NCBI GenBank assembly: GCA_016870115.1
Contig: VGCH01000002.1
Location: 1-64,000 of the forward strand
DNA: 64,000 nucleotides
Direction: 5' to 3'
DNA from: Alphaproteobacteria bacterium
GTDB lineage: Bacteria; Pseudomonadota; Alphaproteobacteria; Reyranellales; Reyranellaceae
Positions 53,544-62,857 of this stretch are shown here, one piece after another. The stretch's first letter is position 1. Each line of letters starts with the position of its first letter. The translations under genes were made by a program, and so were the position numbers. Under the pieces are notes generated by a model. That model was not told where the DNA came from, did not search any database, and worked only from the letters and a program-made list of their open reading frames with translations.

Positions 53544-54947
53544 TCAGCCCTGCAACTGACGCTTGAGCAACTCGACATCCTCGGCAATCGAGTTGTCGGA
53601 AACCTTCAGCTCCTCGATCTTGCGGACCGCGTGCATGACGGTGGTGTGGTCGCGATTGCCGAAGCGCTTGCCGATTTGCGGCAGGCTGAGCGTCGTCAGC
53701 TGCTTGGCGAGGTACATGGCCACCTGGCGCGGTCGGGCGACAGCGCGGGCGCGACGGGGCGAGCTCATCTCGGCCAGCTTGATGTTGTAGTAGCTGGACA
53801 CGCGCTGCTGGATCTCGTCGACCGTCACCTTGCGGTCGGCCTGGCGCAGCAGGTCGTGCAGCACGTCCTGCGCCATTTCCACGGTGATCTCGCGGCCGAT
53901 CAGCTGGCCGTGCGCCACGACACGGTTCAGCGCGCCTTCGAGCTCGCGGATGTTGGTGTTGATCTTGTGGGCGAGAAACTCAAGGACCGCGGCCGGCACC
54001 GGCACGCGGGCGGCCTCGGCCCGGCTCTGCAGGATCGACAGGCGCAGCTCGTAGGTCGAGGCGTGGATGTCGGCGACGAGTCCGCTGCCCAGCCGGGAGC
54101 GCATGCGCTCCTCGAGATCGTGCAGCTCCGACGGCGGCTTCTCGGACGACAGCACGATCTGCTTGTTCTGCTCGACCAGCGAATTGAAGGTGAAGAAGAA
54201 CTCGTCCTGGCTGGTCTCCTTGCCGCAGATGAACTGCACGTCGTCGACCATCAGCACGTCGACGTTGCGGAACATCTCCTTGAAGGCGCCGGTGTTCTTG
54301 GTGCGGAGAGCGTGAATGAACTTGTTCACGAAGCTCTCGGCAGTGAGATACAGCACGCGCGTCCGCGGGTCGCGCTCGCGCAGCGCGTGCCAGATCGCGT
54401 GCATCAGATGCGTCTTGCCGAGTCCGACGCCGCCGAAGATGTAGAGCGGGTTGCGCTCGGGCAGCGGCCGATCCTGCTCGGCGATATTGCGGGCGGCGGC
54501 GTAGGCGAACTCGTTCGGCTTGCCGACCACGAAATTGGCGAAGGTGTAGCGACCCTCCGGCGCCTGGACGACCTCGTCGCCGCGGCCGATCGCCGGCCCC
54601 AGTCGCGGCATCGGCTGGGCGTAGCCGGGTGAACTCGGCACCGGCGGCACGGCGATGATCTCGTTGGGCCGACGCGGGGTCGGCGGCGGCACGAGGTTCA
54701 CCTCGACGTTCTTCACCTCGACATTCACCGACTGCCAGTAGGCGAGCACGCGATCGCCATAGTGGCGGCCGACCCAGTCGCGCACGAAGCGGGTAGGAGC
54801 ATAGAGACGAATCTTGCCGAGCTTCAGTTCGCCCAACTCGACCTCGCCGAACCACGTCTTGAACGCCTTATCGCCGATCTCCTTGCGCAGCCGGTCGCAG
54901 ACGCGGCCCCATTGGCCTTCAAGCTCCCTGCGGCCTTGCTCTTCCAT
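53544..54947 (-). CDS. dnaA: Chromosomal replication initiator DnaA
   Basis: DnaA opens the origin and recruits the helicase. The 467-residue protein has domain I ([26 protein letters not shown]), a proline-rich linker, and the AAA+ domain ([24 protein letters not shown], Walker [11 protein letters not shown] at 171-180, Walker [15 protein letters not shown]). Domain IV ends in the DNA-binding signature [22 protein letters not shown] 54947 follows GGGGCGGGAC. The same frame is open far upstream, over the rhodanese gene, but that part is not DnaA. Confidence 0.98.
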
Positions 54948-55015
54948 GTCCCGCCCCGCAAAAACTACGATTTCCGACTGCCGATCCTGCGTTCCGCCGC
55001 CCCTTGGCGCGCGGC

Positions 55016-55480
55016 TCACGTCTGCCTCCAGGGAAGGCCCGAGGCCTTCCACCCGACGGTACTCCCCCGCCGGGCCTTCCCGTCGGGCGGGCCCTCGAAC
55101 CCGTCGGAAACATTGAAACAGTTGCTGTATCCGGCCTCGGTCATGGCCCGCGCCGCTGCTGCCGAACGCACACCGGAGCGGCAGAGAAAGAGGAGCGGTG
55201 CGCCCCGGTCCGCGACGCCGCCCGACAACTGGGCGACGAACTCCGGGTTCACCTGCATCGACGGGAAGACCTGCCACTCGAGCAGCGCCGGCTTGCGGCC
55301 GACGCTTTCGAGATCGGGCAGGCCGACATAGGACCACTCGGCGCGGGTGCGCACATCGATCAGGATCGCATCCTTGCGGGACTCGAGAATTTTCCAGGCT
55401 GTCGCGGGCGTCACGTTTCCGGCGTAGCCGGGCGCGGGGGCGATTTCGAATGTGCCGGAAATGGAATCGCCCGCCGCCAT
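55016..55480 (-). CDS. Rhodanese-like sulfurtransferase domain protein
   Basis: The 154-residue single-domain rhodanese has VTPATAWKILESRKDAILIDVRTRAEWSYVGLPD and the active-site loop FLCRSGVRSAAAARAM with a catalytic Cys, ending RGSTVGWKASGLPWRQ. It probably handles persulfide or thiosulfate sulfur, or acts as a sulfur carrier. It lies directly upstream of dnaA on the same strand (68 bases). GGGGGGG before the ATG serves as ribosome site. Confidence 0.9.
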   Translation of the reverse strand: MAAGDSISGTFEIAPAPGYAGNVTPATAWKILESRKDAILIDVRTRAEWSYVGLPDLESVGRKPALLEWQVFPSMQVNPEFVAQLSGGVADRGAPLLFLCRSGVRSAAAARAMTEAGYSNCFNVSDGFEGPPDGKARRGSTVGWKASGLPWRQT

Positions 55481-56021
55481 AGCCCCCCCGCATCTTCATT
55501 GTGGGCGCGGTGGCAACGAGCGGACCTCCGACGTCGGGAGAAACGCGGCCAGGGGAACTCAAGCGTCGGTTGGCGGGAACGTGCGCGCCTCGAAGCGAGC
55601 GCGGCGGTTCCGGATGAATTGCCTCGACGTCGTCCGCCTGTCGCTCTCTCGTCTCCCTGTCGTTGCGGCGAAGCGGTATGGACCCCCCTGCTTCGCCGCG
55701 GCCCGCGATCGTTGCCCCACGCCCCGTCGCGATGCGCATCTCTTAGCCACGCGCGTGGCGACTCGCAAACGATTCACATGCCGCTCCGCGCACACAATCC
55801 CTGATGTTCACCGCGTGACTTCGTTGACAACAAATCCGAACTGATCCTTCAGGCACGCTTCGTCCCGACTCGACGACAAGATTTTGGGGCTGACGCATCT
55901 CGCGCGACGATAGAGGCGAATTGCATGATGTTTGCCGAATTCGCCGCCAAGGATTCTTTGACCGAGGCGATGGAAAAAAGTTTTCGTCGCGTCGCGCGAT
56001 CTTTCCGGTGCAGCGCGGGCA
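55481..56021. other. Non-coding gap between rpsT and the rhodanese-dnaA unit
   Basis: I can support no gene in these 540 bases, although several frames are open by chance. It is less GC-rich than its surroundings, especially 55780-56000. A weak DnaA-box-like CGATTCACA (about 55769-55777) and scattered GATTC/GACTC methylation-type sites are seen, but no consensus TTATCCACA. Being next to dnaA it is a candidate replication-origin or dnaA-promoter region, with weak evidence. Confidence 0.35.
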
Positions 56022-56052
56022 CAAAAAGAAACGCCGCTCTTTCGAGCGGCGT
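56022..56052 (-). terminator. rpsT terminator
   Basis: Nine-base arms at 56031-56039 and 56044-56052 with a four-base loop are followed on the minus strand by TTTCTTTTT. It is 32 bases after the rpsT stop and closes that transcript. Confidence 0.85.
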
Positions 56053-56084
56053 CGGTATCGGTCGAGGATCGCGTGAAGCGTCGT

Positions 56085-56348
56085 TCAGGCCATCGCCTTG
56101 ATGCGCTTGGCGAGGCGTGAGACGCGGCGCGCAGCGGTGTTGTCCGCGAGCACGCCCTTGTCGGCGCCGCGCTGGATCTCGGGCTGCGCCGCCTTCAGCG
56201 CGGCCTGCGCGGCCTTCTTGTCGCCGGCGGCGATCGCCTCCATGACGTTCTTGATGCCGGCACGGACGCGGCCGCGACGGGCCGAGTTCACGGCGGTGCG
56301 ACGCTTGGTTTGGCGCGCGCGCTTTTCTGCCGACTTGTGGTTCGCCAT
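56085..56348 (-). CDS. rpsT: 30S ribosomal protein S20
   Basis: S20 is a primary 16S rRNA binder. The 87-residue helical basic protein starts [44 protein letters not shown] and ends [18 protein letters not shown], as expected. AGAGGAAGAA precedes the ATG. It sits upstream of dnaA, the usual alphaproteobacterial order, and has its own terminator. Confidence 0.97.
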
Positions 56349-56423
56349 TTCTTCCTCTGGTCTGCGAAGCGCGCGCTTGTACAGGCGGTGCGGGGGCGGG
56401 TCAAGCCGGCCCCGGACCCCGCC

Positions 56424-57203
56424 TCAGCGGTGCTTCCAGACCGCGGCGCGCTTGTCGGCGAAAGCCGCCATGCCCTCGCGCCGATCCTCGAAGGCGAAGG
56501 TTGCATGGAAGGTGCGGCGCTCGAATTTCACGCCCTCCGCGAGCCCGGTTTCGAAGGCCATATTGACCGCTTCCTTGGCGACCATGGTCGCGGGCAATGA
56601 CAGCGAGGCGATCTTCTCGGCTGCTGCCACCGCCTCGTCCATCAGCTTGTCCAGCGGAACCACCCGGCTCACCAGACCGCAGCGCTCGGCCTCGGCGGCG
56701 TCCATCATGCGGCCGGTCAGCACCATATCCATCGCTTTGGACTTGCCGACGAAGCGCGGCAGGCGCTGGGTGCCGCCAGAACCCGGGATGGTGCCGAGCA
56801 GAATCTCCGGTTGGCCGAACTTGGCGTTCTCGGCCGCGATGATGAAGTCGCACATCATGGCCACCTCGCAGCCGCCACCGAGCGCGAAGCCGGCCACCGC
56901 CGCCACGACCGGCTTGCGGATCTGGCTTACCTTTTCCCAGCCCACCGTAATGAAGTCGGCGAGAAAGACGTCCTGGTAGTCGCGGTCCTTCATCTCCTTG
57001 ATGTCGGCGCCGGCGGCGAAGGCCTTGTCGCTGCCGGTCAGCACGACGCAGCCGATGCCGGCGTCGGCCTCGAAGGCGTCCAGGGCCTGACCCAGTTCGC
57101 GGATCAGGTCGGCACAGAGCGCGTTCAGCGCCTTGGGCCGGTTCAGCCGCACGATGCCGACGCGGCCCCTCCGTTCCACCAGAATGTTTTCGTAGCTCGC
57201 CAT
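56424..57203 (-). CDS. Enoyl-CoA hydratase
   Basis: The 259-residue crotonase-fold enzyme hydrates trans-2-enoyl-CoA in beta-oxidation. It shows [14 protein letters not shown], the oxyanion-hole segments [10 protein letters not shown] and [21 protein letters not shown], and the catalytic glutamates in [25 protein letters not shown], which match FadB-like and PaaF-like short hydratases. ATG 57203 gives the normal length. It is between mutM and rpsT, as in other alphaproteobacteria. Confidence 0.93.
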
Positions 57204-57232
57204 GTGCGCCTCCGGTCCGGCGCGCTCCTTAA

Positions 57233-58069
57233 CTAGCGCTGGCGGGCGGCGCAATAGAAGGTCGAGCGGCCGGCCTGGACCACGCGGCGGATCGCCTTGC
57301 CGCAGTCGCAGCCCGGGCAGGGCAGACCGGCCCGGTCGTACACTTTGAAGCGCGTCTGGAAATAGCCGAGCTCGCCGTCCGGCTGGACGTGGTCGCGCAC
57401 CGTCGAACCGCCGTCGGCAATCGACCGGCGCAGCACGTCGCGAATCGCCCGCGCCAACCGGTCCGCCCGGTCCCCCTGGACGGTGTGGGCGGAGCGCTTG
57501 GGCGAGATGCCGGCGTCGAACAGCGCCTCGCAGGCATAGATGTTGCCCACCCCGACCAGCGTCTTCTGGTCAAGTAGCGCCGCCTTGATCGGGGTCTTGC
57601 GGCCGGCCAGTCGCGCCGCCAAGGCCGCGCCGTCGAAACTTTCGTCCAGCGGCTCGGGCCCGAGATGACGGAAGAGCTTGTGCTTTGCCAAGGCGTCCGT
57701 GCCGATCAGCAGCATCACTCCGAAGCGGCGGGCGTCGTTGAAGCGCACCTGGGTTCCGCGGTCGGTCTCGAAGACGACGTGGTCATGCCGGTCGAACGGC
57801 GCCTCGGCATCGCGGCCCGACAATAGAGTCATGCGGCCGGACATCCCGAGATGGATCACCCAGCTCGTGCCGTCATCCAATCGCAGGAGCAGGTACTTCG
57901 CGCGCCGGTCGATGGCCTCGACGGTGCGGCCCTCGACCCGGGCCGCGAAGCGCGTCGGCAGGGGCGAGCGCAGATCGCGCCGGCGCTGGAGCAGCCGCAC
58001 GAGCTTGCGTCCCACCAAGTGCGGGATCAGGCCGCATCGGACCGTCTCGACTTCGGGCAGTTCCGGCAT
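57233..58069 (-). CDS. mutM: Formamidopyrimidine-DNA glycosylase MutM (Fpg)
   Basis: MutM removes 8-oxoguanine and formamidopyrimidines and nicks the site. The 278-residue protein has the catalytic N-terminus [11 protein letters not shown] (Pro2, Glu3), [23 protein letters not shown] and the helix-two-turn-helix [23 protein letters not shown]. The C-terminal zinc finger is unusual: [28 protein letters not shown] has Cys251, 254, 256 and 273, but the usual fourth ligand is Arg276 (CGC in place of TGC). Cys256 might stand in. It is divergent from the EEP gene with 24 bases between. Confidence 0.93.
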
Positions 58070-58093: not shown

Positions 58094-59077
58094 ATGAACG
58101 GGCAACGTCCCTCGTCGAGCGCGTGGCACCGCGCGATCCCGCTGGCGGCCCGGCTGTGGCTGGCGCTGGTCGCGTTGTCGTTCCTCGGTGCCTGGCACCC
58201 GTGGCTGGAGCTGCCCAGTCATCTCAGGCTGCATTTGACCGGTGCAGGGGTCGCGCTGGCGATCGCCACGGCGATGCTGCGCACCCGCGCCATGACCCTA
58301 ATTCTGGTCGCGGCCGCCGGGATCAACCTGGCCGACGGCTGGTCAAGCGCCGCGCGGCCACCGGCGGTGCCGGTCGGGCCGGGTCCGGCCTTCCGCGTCG
58401 TGTGGGCCAATCTCCAGAACTGGAACACCGACCTCGCGGCGCTGCGGCATCTCGTCGAATTCGAGCGGCCGGATCTTCTCTTGCTGACCGAACTTGCGGC
58501 AACCCATCGCGAGGTCCTGCAGGGCGTGCGGCCCTTGTTGCCGTTCCAGTCGGCCGACGCGATGACCGACCCGCTCGCCGTCCTGGCCGCCACGCGGGTT
58601 GCGCCGGAGGCGATGCAGTTCGACTACGGCGTCGGTCCCGAGGGTCCGCTTGCGATCGTGCGCTTCTGTCCGATCGCCGACGCCGCCTGCGTCACCGTCC
58701 TCGCGCTGCATGGCGCCCGCCCGTGGCGCGGACCGGATGGCCTGCGCGATCGCCAGCTTGCGCACGCCGCCGCGGTCGCGCGCCGGCGCCAGGCGGCGGG
58801 TGAGATCGTGGCGTTGGTCGGCGATCTCAACACCACGCCTCACGCCGTCTCGTTCAAGCGCCTGTTGGCGCAATCGGGATTGCGCGACGCCATACGCGGT
58901 CCGCAGGAGCGACCGCATCCGCCCTTCGCCACCTGGCCCACTCGGGCTGGTGCCTGGGGCATTGCCATCGACCATGTGCTGGTCGGACCGGGCCTCGCCA
59001 CGTCCGAAGTGCGTCGCGGACCCGACATCGGCAGCGACCATTTTCCGGTGATCGTTGATTTGCGCTTGCCGCGCTGA
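58094..59077 (+). CDS. Membrane-anchored endonuclease/exonuclease/phosphatase-family protein
   Basis: The 327-residue protein has two or three N-terminal hydrophobic segments (LWLALVALSFLGAWHPWL, LTGAGVALAIATAML, ALILVAAAGINLA-like). An EEP fold follows: FRVVWANLQNWNTDLAALRHLVEFERPDLLLLTEL, then VALVGDLNTTPHAVSFKRLL, IDHVLVGPGLATSE and GSDHFPVIVDL, which carry the metal and catalytic Asn, Asp and His residues. It is probably a periplasmic phosphodiesterase with unknown substrate. The 24-base gap to mutM leaves little room for two promoters. Confidence 0.87.
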   Translation: MNGQRPSSSAWHRAIPLAARLWLALVALSFLGAWHPWLELPSHLRLHLTGAGVALAIATAMLRTRAMTLILVAAAGINLADGWSSAARPPAVPVGPGPAFRVVWANLQNWNTDLAALRHLVEFERPDLLLLTELAATHREVLQGVRPLLPFQSADAMTDPLAVLAATRVAPEAMQFDYGVGPEGPLAIVRFCPIADAACVTVLALHGARPWRGPDGLRDRQLAHAAAVARRRQAAGEIVALVGDLNTTPHAVSFKRLLAQSGLRDAIRGPQERPHPPFATWPTRAGAWGIAIDHVLVGPGLATSEVRRGPDIGSDHFPVIVDLRLPR

Positions 59078-61180: not shown

Positions 61181-61732
61181 ATGGCAGGGGATCGCGATCT
61201 CTTCCTGAAGGCGATGGCCGACGCGCGCCCTCTGAAAGGTGTGTCGCGCCGCGCGCCGGTGGCGGCCAAGCCAGCACCCGCTGCCCCGATGGCCGTGGCG
61301 CCGCGGCCGCCCGTGCCGAGACCGACGGTCGAGCCCGATCTGGACGCCGGGGGCTCAGGGTTCGATCGCGACCTCTCGCGTGCCCTGTCGCGTCGCCGCC
61401 TGGAGCCCGACCTCAAGCTCGATCTGCACGGCCTCACGCTGGCAGCCGCTGAGCGCGCGGTGCGGCGGTTCCTTGCCGAGGCGCAGGGTGCCGATGCGCG
61501 GGTCGCGCTGGTCGTGACCGGCAAGGGTTTGCGGGAGGAGGGCGGCCGCGTGCTGGGCGGGCGCATCCGCGGCGAGCTGATGGGCTGGCTCAATCGCGCC
61601 GACAACCGCGCCTATGTGCGGGCGGTGCGGGCCGCCCACCCGCACCACGGTGGCGGTGGCGCCTTCTATTTGCTGCTGCGCCGCCGCTCGTCAGCCAGCA
61701 GTCGCTCCTTGCGCGCCACGCCCCAGCGATAG
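61181..61732 (+). CDS. Smr-domain protein
   Basis: The 183-residue protein has a low-complexity Ala/Pro-rich N-terminal half and a C-terminal Smr domain: LKLDLHGLTLAAAERAVRRFLAEAQ, the ALVVTGKGLREEGGRVLGGRIRGELMGWL segment and a final AFYLLLRR. Small Smr proteins are RNA/DNA nucleases or ribosome-collision factors in some bacteria. The start is ATG 61181; GTG 61178 is also possible. Its end overlaps the opposite ada gene by 67 bases, with the last 15 residues (SSASSRSLRATPQR) looking unconserved. Confidence 0.87.
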   Translation: MAGDRDLFLKAMADARPLKGVSRRAPVAAKPAPAAPMAVAPRPPVPRPTVEPDLDAGGSGFDRDLSRALSRRRLEPDLKLDLHGLTLAAAERAVRRFLAEAQGADARVALVVTGKGLREEGGRVLGGRIRGELMGWLNRADNRAYVRAVRAAHPHHGGGGAFYLLLRRRSSASSRSLRATPQR

Positions 61733-62787
61733 CCCGTGAGGCTGCCACTTGAGCCGATCGCTCGGTGGCAGGGCACCACGATCGACACCGGATTGGTGGC
61801 GCAGGCGCGGCCGACGGCGCGGGCGGCGTTGGGCTTGCCGAGCGCTTGCGCGATCTCACCATAGGTGCGGGTCGTGCCGGCGGGGATTTCGGTAAGCGCC
61901 TTCCAGACCTTCCATTGGAAGGCCGTGCCCAGGATATCGAGCGGCACGTCGGTGGCATCGAGCGCCGTGGGCTTTCGTCCGTAGAGCCGGGCCAAAACGC
62001 CCTGCACGCGGTCCTTCAGGCCGCGATCGTCACGCGCCAGCTCGGCGGCAGGGAAGTCGCGCTTGAGCTCGCGTTCGAGTCGCGCGTCGTCTTCGCCCAG
62101 GAATACCGCGGCCACCCCGCGTTCGGTCGCCGCCACCAGCACGCGGCCATAGTCGCTGTCGGCAAGCGTCCAGGCGATGCGAGCGCCAGCGCCGCCGCGC
62201 CGATAGGTGGCGGGCGTCATGCCGAGCGCGCGGTCGCTGCTTTCATAGACGCGGCTGGAGGAGCCATAGCCCGCGCCATAGATCGCGTCCGACACCGAGG
62301 TGCCCTCGCGCAGCGCGCGGCGCAGGCGATCGCGCTTGCGGGCGGCAAGCCAATCGCGCGGTCCGACCCCCAGCTCGTTTGCAAAGCGTTTGCCCAGCGC
62401 GCCGGCCGAGAGACCGACGCTGCGTGCCACGGCCGCGAGCGAGGGTGGATCTTGCGGATCGGCGGCGTCGAACAGGCGGCAAGCGTCCGCGACTGGACGG
62501 CTGAGTCCGGAGGCGGTTTCCCACTCCAGCGGCCTGCAGCGCTTGCAGGCGCGGAAACCCGCGGCTTCGGCAGCGGCGGGCGAGGCATGGAACGCCACGT
62601 TGCACCTGAGCGGCGGTCGCGCGGCGCAGGACGGCAGGCAGTAAACGCCCGTGGTGCGTACCGAGAACCAGAACCGGCCGTTGTAGGTGCGGTCGCGGGT
62701 CAGGACGGCGCGCCAGCACGTCTCGAAATCGGGAAGCGTCGCGGGCGGGGCGATAGTCGGGGAGATCGGAGTGGCGGTCGGGATCAT
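61666..62787 (-). CDS. ada: Bifunctional Ada: DNA methyl-phosphotriester/O6-alkylguanine repair and regulator
   Basis: Ada transfers methyl groups from DNA to its own cysteines and then activates repair genes. The 373-residue protein has the N-terminal zinc and methyl-acceptor domain with Cys50, Cys54, Cys81 and Cys84 (GVYCLPSC, CKRC). An AraC-type HTH follows (SLAAVARSVGLSAGALGKRFANELGVGPRDWLAARK), then the O6-alkyl transferase domain ending FQWKVWKALTEIPAGTTRTYGEIAQALG and the acceptor motif VVPCHRAIGSSG. ATG 62787 is the natural start. Confidence 0.93.
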   Translation of the reverse strand: MIPTATPISPTIAPPATLPDFETCWRAVLTRDRTYNGRFWFSVRTTGVYCLPSCAARPPLRCNVAFHASPAAAEAAGFRACKRCRPLEWETASGLSRPVADACRLFDAADPQDPPSLAAVARSVGLSAGALGKRFANELGVGPRDWLAARKRDRLRRALREGTSVSDAIYGAGYGSSSRVYESSDRALGMTPATYRRGGAGARIAWTLADSDYGRVLVAATERGVAAVFLGEDDARLERELKRDFPAAELARDDRGLKDRVQGVLARLYGRKPTALDATDVPLDILGTAFQWKVWKALTEIPAGTTRTYGEIAQALGKPNAARAVGRACATNPVSIVVPCHRAIGSSGSLTGYRWGVARKERLLADERRRSSK

Positions 62788-62857
62788 GCGCCGATCAAAG
62801 CACACGGAACCCGGCCGCTCTATCCGGCATCGGCGGGCAATTCACCCGCCGGGCTGC

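Follow-up and report, generated by a model that had tools for sequence, protein, structure and literature searches.

Bacterial Fpg (MutM) enzymes of the Cys4 beta-ribbon type, as described for E. coli (1K82), L. lactis (1PM5) and B. stearothermophilus (1R2Y), share a common fold, a catalytic N-terminus, an H2TH domain and a hairpin that carries an arginine. One finger arginine pinches the phosphates beside the lesion (PMC9266487), and the four finger cysteines are described as "perfectly conserved" in BaFpg1, BaFpg2 and some other groups in a family analysis (PMC3188539); statements from these two articles and from PMC4176347 refer throughout to excerpts of their text. Changes to the finger cysteines of E. 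coli Fpg abolish binding, 2-thioxanthine attacks Cys268 of Lactococcus Fpg, and the zinc loss it causes abolishes Fpg DNA binding (PMC4176347). In the same excerpts, complementation of an E. coli fpg mutY strain succeeds with Lactococcus Fpg C268H (fourth cysteine to histidine), a variant that resisted purification, and the finger structure persists in C248GH (second ligand; 4pd2), so changed ligands are tolerated in at least one Fpg. Zinc ligands are usually regarded as fixed, and among titles and abstract openings in the open-licence literature none described an Fpg with a relocated cysteine.

Here, we describe a mutM gene within a 64,000-nucleotide stretch of alphaproteobacterial DNA (the window), whose product matches the bacterial Cys4 enzymes in fold, catalytic N-terminus, H2TH domain, hairpin and arginine, and differs from them in lacking the fourth cysteine and in carrying a third knuckle cysteine. 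NEIL2 (one His ligand) and the Lactococcus variants C248GH and C268H likewise have one ligand changed with finger or function kept (PMC3188539, PMC9266487, PMC4176347); there the ligand type is changed in place, whereas in window MutM a cysteine elsewhere is proposed to take over. The zincless fingers of NEIL1, plant Fpg and mimivirus Nei1 are alike in their arginine-bearing hairpin and missing canonical cysteine, but they hold no zinc (PMC9266487, PMC3188539) and window MutM retains four candidate cysteine ligands. The gene and its finger residues are as follows.

57233..58069 (-): mutM/fpg, DNA-formamidopyrimidine glycosylase, 278 aa (translation and profile matches)
57233..57319 (-): C-terminal finger, Cys251 to Arg278, with the stop codon (translation)
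57317..57319 (-): Cys251, predicted first zinc ligand (invariant in 45 aligned Fpgs)
57308..57310 (-): Cys254, added knuckle cysteine and candidate replacement ligand (three-cysteine knuckles in 95 of 290 Fpgs, 93 of them without the last cysteine)
57302..57304 (-): Cys256, at the site that the second ligand usually takes in C-x4-C-x16-C relatives (spacing counts)
57266..57268 (-): Arg268, finger-loop arginine, phosphate-gripping (invariant in 45 Fpgs and aligned with E. coli 1K82; role from excerpts of PMC9266487)
57251..57253 (-): Cys273, third canonical ligand, retained (invariant in 45 aligned Fpgs)
57242..57244 (-): Arg276 (CGC), at the canonical fourth-cysteine place (translation)

Translation of 57233-58069 on the minus strand gives an N-terminus of MPELPEVE, with the catalytic Pro and Glu, and a C-terminus of CPGCDC…YCAARQR; Pro2, Glu3, Lys58 and Arg268 are invariant in an alignment of 45 sequences. 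The canonical fourth cysteine, three residues after the third, is absent and Arg276 stands there, as the initial annotation had read it, and all the residues it described are present. The finger therefore still holds four cysteines (251, 254, 256 and 273) in an arrangement that differs from the canonical one. Cys256, which had been named as the extra cysteine, is indeed present. The finger of the nearest relatives is mostly C-x4-C-x16-C-x2-C, and by comparison with it Cys254 is better taken as the added cysteine, because Cys256 lies 16 residues before Cys273, as the usual second ligand does in those relatives. Against an E. coli-type finger (C-x2-C), the roles of Cys254 and Cys256 can be read the other way.

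Pfam profiles place both Fapy_DNA_glyco (PF01149, 127.3 bits) and H2TH (PF06831, 94.9 bits) in window MutM above their cut-offs, and the NCBIfam equivalogs NF002211 (342.3 against a cut-off of 212) and TIGR00577 (275.6 against 203.3) agree. By the features tested the protein is an Fpg, and its finger, as read from the sequence, departs from the canonical form in the place of one ligand. The AlphaFold model (mean pLDDT 92.5) has the finger hairpin as strands 261-265 and 268-272, and E. coli Fpg 1k82 heads its structural matches (Z 31.7, rmsd 1.7 over 255 residues). For residues 251-260 the mean pLDDT is 85; the canonical relative L032, predicted from an identical set of input sequences, reaches 97 over the same residue numbers. 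The predicted fold is thus kept, and the knuckle is less certain.

Fpg relatives were collected from a relatives search, a species-genome scan, a class-wide search, 137 fetched regions and a phylum-wide finger search. The named relatives from the species-genome scan point to Alphaproteobacteria as the class searched. The 302 loci gave 292 distinct proteins after removal of 10 duplicate loci, and 290 of these had a parsed finger. Two proteins, L140 and L272, were unparsed and left out of the counts: L140, which may be truly defective or wrongly assembled, has Arg for the third finger cysteine and keeps the other three, the last included; the finger of L272, a distant paralogue, is plain. Sampling was uneven, with loci ranked by similarity to the window protein, and the variant finger supplied the patterns or the query for the species-genome scan and the phylum finger search.

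Two knuckle cysteines with the last cysteine are found in 177 of the 290 parsed Fpgs; 93, window MutM included, have three knuckle cysteines and no last cysteine (hereafter moved fingers), a proportion that is no natural frequency because of the ranked loci and the variant-finger patterns and query. The remainder have three knuckle cysteines with the last (2), two without it (13) or one with it (5). At the fourth place the moved fingers carry Arg (67), Lys (11), Leu (4), Thr (3), Gln (3), Trp (2), His (2) or Tyr (1), so that Arg or Lys accounts for 78 of 93; the comparison with orthologues proposed in the initial annotation thus finds Arg conserved at that place in most proteins of the same type, and its refuting case of Arg conserved with normal activity in relatives holds as far as conservation goes. 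Cys to Arg is a single transition (TGC to CGC), which may account for the lead of Arg. Among the 190 two-cysteine knuckles the last residue is Cys in 177, His in 9 and Asp in 4, and Arg in none, and only 2 of the 95 three-cysteine knuckles have Cys there. His and Asp are both able to bind zinc. Within the parsed set, a metal-incapable last residue is limited, by these residue counts, to three-cysteine knuckles, because the last residue is His or Asp in all 13 two-cysteine exceptions.

The canonical fingers read C-x4-C-x16-C in 130 and C-x2-C-x16-C in 28 of 177, and the moved fingers read C-x2-C-x1-C in 78 of 93, with C-x2-C and then 4 to 14 residues to the third cysteine in the other 15. The distance from the third knuckle cysteine to the Cys273 equivalent is 16 in 46 of the 93 and 20 in 32. 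At the fourth ligand place, four proteins of one genus (L145, L154, L169 and L174; genus g40) carry Asp, which gives the unusual set C-x2-C-x16-C-x2-D. In L107, L151, L222, L244 and L249 one first-knuckle cysteine is present and the terminal C-x2-C is retained, and in four of these five a nearby His or Asp may serve as a ligand. Five cysteines are found in L080, L301 and L224, the last of which has an additional cysteine near its end ('CSCW'). The five one-cysteine proteins and L140 have only three cysteines and no His or Asp at the last place; four ligands are therefore not an absolute rule, given these six proteins and the three with five cysteines.

Trees were built from the protein without its finger. 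In a 42-row IQ-TREE (35 rows of the window's bacterial family and 7 outgroup rows), the starred branches require no fewer than 4 changes of state. L028 groups with the moved L017 and L018 at 100/98 and has L018 as its nearest neighbour at 82/37; its finger (CTRCNN…CPTC) has no third knuckle cysteine and has the last one, which we infer to be, most simply, a switch back to the canonical type. A 290-row FastTree, run with warnings on long branches and odd letter make-up, needs 34 changes of the moved state; starred branches, which in FastTree are less safe than bootstraps, force 12 or more of these. An independent-pair test on this tree yields 14 supported pairs with a difference at the third cysteine; across them the last cysteine is opposite in about 9.5, changes in the other direction in 0 and stays the same in about 4.5 (median p 0.004). 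A 90-row IQ-TREE needs 17 changes of the moved state, of which starred branches force only 2, and 2 supported independent pairs remain, too few for the test. A pair test confined to moved and canonical fingers (10/10) was set aside as no evidence, that result being obtained by construction.

A check on close relatives that uses no tree agrees. Disjoint pairs of at least 60% identity that differ in the third cysteine number 65, of which 54 are coupled, 9 have a partner with His or Asp and 2 involve five-cysteine rows; at 65% identity the figures are 29, 3 and 2 of 34, and at 70% identity 6, 3 and 1 of 10, these pairs being not strictly independent. Judged from these comparisons, the third knuckle cysteine is gained and the last cysteine lost in a coupled manner, across the family tree and in close pairs. 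The coupling supports the suggestion, made from the window alone, that the finger residues may have moved.

Because the same swap recurs in many related bacteria, the finger has most likely been rebuilt rather than broken. We put a probability of about 85% on a relocated zinc ligand, in which C-x2-C-x1-C-x16-C replaces C-x2/4-C-x16-C-x2-C, the fold and Arg268 are kept, and zinc binding is predicted. The fourth ligand would have left its place after Cys273 in the second knuckle for the first knuckle (C251-x2-C254-x1-C256); zinc would then be bound by Cys251, Cys254, Cys256 and Cys273 and would hold the hairpin carrying Arg268. The beta-hairpin and Arg268, which would grip the phosphates beside the damaged base, are predicted to stay unmoved, and since they stay, DNA binding and excision of 8-oxoG and Fapy are predicted to be near normal. 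We would expect repair in the host strain to be unaffected.

The best-surviving alternative, which we consider improbable, is that Arg276 cost the protein a ligand and left a weakened finger, and so a poor enzyme, or a zincless one like those of NEIL1 and plant Fpg. Zincless fingers are known in the family (excerpts of PMC9266487), the lower model confidence in the knuckle than in L032 would fit, and the Pfam finger profile zf-FPG_IleRS (PF06827) scores 19.6 bits on window MutM by protein, just below its cut-off of 21.3, and 21.4 in the genome scan. Plain decay, however, would neither retain a compensating cysteine nor shun Arg in 190 two-cysteine knuckles, and three knuckle cysteines with Cys273 are retained in 93 proteins. 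The initial annotation had raised a weakened finger as well; it finds little support, given that a metal-incapable last residue is seen only with the extra knuckle cysteine. A second Fpg/Nei gene that would free mutM to decay was also considered and rejected: a profile search finds window mutM to be the sole PF01149 match in the 3.56-Mb genome, with no second gene as cover. A MutY-type gene scores above its cut-off elsewhere in the same genome. A finger change common to the genome's other Fpg/IleRS-type finger was likewise rejected; that match, on contig C13, has a plain C-x2-C…C-x2-C. By its family name it would be IleRS.

It is more doubtful still that the CxxCxC...C set serves another metal, an iron-sulphur site or a redox switch instead of structural zinc: three close cysteines and one distant one could in principle suit such a site, but the hairpin fold and Arg268 are retained, and His or Asp at the last place in the 13 two-cysteine relatives fits zinc. 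A sequencing or assembly error or a private strain mutation, with TGC read as CGC, would take a single transition but is barely credible, as the same combination is present in 93 distinct proteins, which include L017, L018 and L030 of the same family and those of the cultured Roseospira navarrensis (L039) and Caldovatus aquaticus (L066), and 67 of the 93 have Arg, so Arg276 is not a chance change or a sequencing slip.

On this explanation the site behaves as though it had five slots, four of them occupied, with lineages changing from one occupancy to another. A switch would probably pass through short-lived five-cysteine or His/Asp states; L301 (CRTIGCGGC…CATC) is a living five-cysteine example, and two His-type proteins lie close to moved ones (L227/L228, 79%; L240/L248, 73%). 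A bolder reading, which we offer only tentatively, is that the fourth ligand hops between the knuckles repeatedly and reversibly in Alphaproteobacteria. The exposed fourth position, once freed and mostly Arg or Lys, would perhaps add a DNA contact, and the thiol that 2-thioxanthine targets in Lactococcus Fpg would be gone. If this bolder reading is true, the enzymes would differ in resistance to oxidation or to inhibitors like 2-thioxanthine. Moved-finger Fpgs may in any case respond differently to thiol-reactive inhibitors. The interest of the system lies in a clean and repeated natural case of apparent zinc-ligand relocation: nature offers many close pairs that seem to differ by the move of one ligand while sharing the fold, and ligand relocation thereby becomes directly testable.

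Among the coded rows, 40 of 77 families and 61 of 122 genera include a moved finger, and in five families moved and canonical types coexist; with loci ranked by likeness, these figures too are no natural frequencies. Roseospira navarrensis, Caldovatus aquaticus, an Acidisphaera sp. and a Magnetospirillum MAG are among the named holders. Of the 35 rows from the window's bacterial family, 31 are canonical; the four moved ones are the window protein, L030, L017 and L018. The class-wide set (L112-L255), ranked by whole protein and taken from the best-scoring of 329 matching genomes among 387, counts 141 of 144 loci, with L140 and two duplicates out; it has 70 moved, 56 canonical, 11 His/Asp and 4 one-cysteine fingers, which in a likeness-ranked set is no natural frequency. 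A motif check on the last cysteine would therefore miscall many alphaproteobacterial Fpgs as defective (the 70 of 141 in this likeness-ranked set).

Outside the window's class, 61 loci were covered: 30 from a class of 30 genomes, the best 30 from another class (163 of 370 genomes matching) and L279. An Fpg above the cut-off is present in 49 of these and absent from 12. The script sorted 45 of the 49, four of them mis-anchored (CFCPxC with a normal last cysteine), and the 4 it left unsorted are canonical by eye, L348 on re-inspection. The moved type is found in 0 of these 49 Fpgs from other classes of the phylum, which are best matches only. One of the 49, L342, has five cysteines.

By Pfam matches, mutM lies in a minus-strand gene run (53544-58069) with dnaA domains, ribosomal protein S20 and enoyl-CoA hydratase. 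The DnaA ORF (53547-55739, minus strand) is 731 aa as listed, with DnaA_N starting only at residue 276, and a rhodanese-like ORF (55016-55480) occupies the stretch preceding the DnaA domains in a different frame; since that ORF lies wholly before DnaA_N, DnaA probably begins downstream of its listed start. Divergent from mutM, at 58094-59077 on the plus strand, is the neighbouring gene for an endonuclease/exonuclease/phosphatase-family protein (Pfam). A second DNA-repair gene close to mutM (61666-62805, minus strand) encodes an Ada-type protein with metal-binding, AraC-like helix-turn-helix and O6-methylguanine methyltransferase domains (Pfam).
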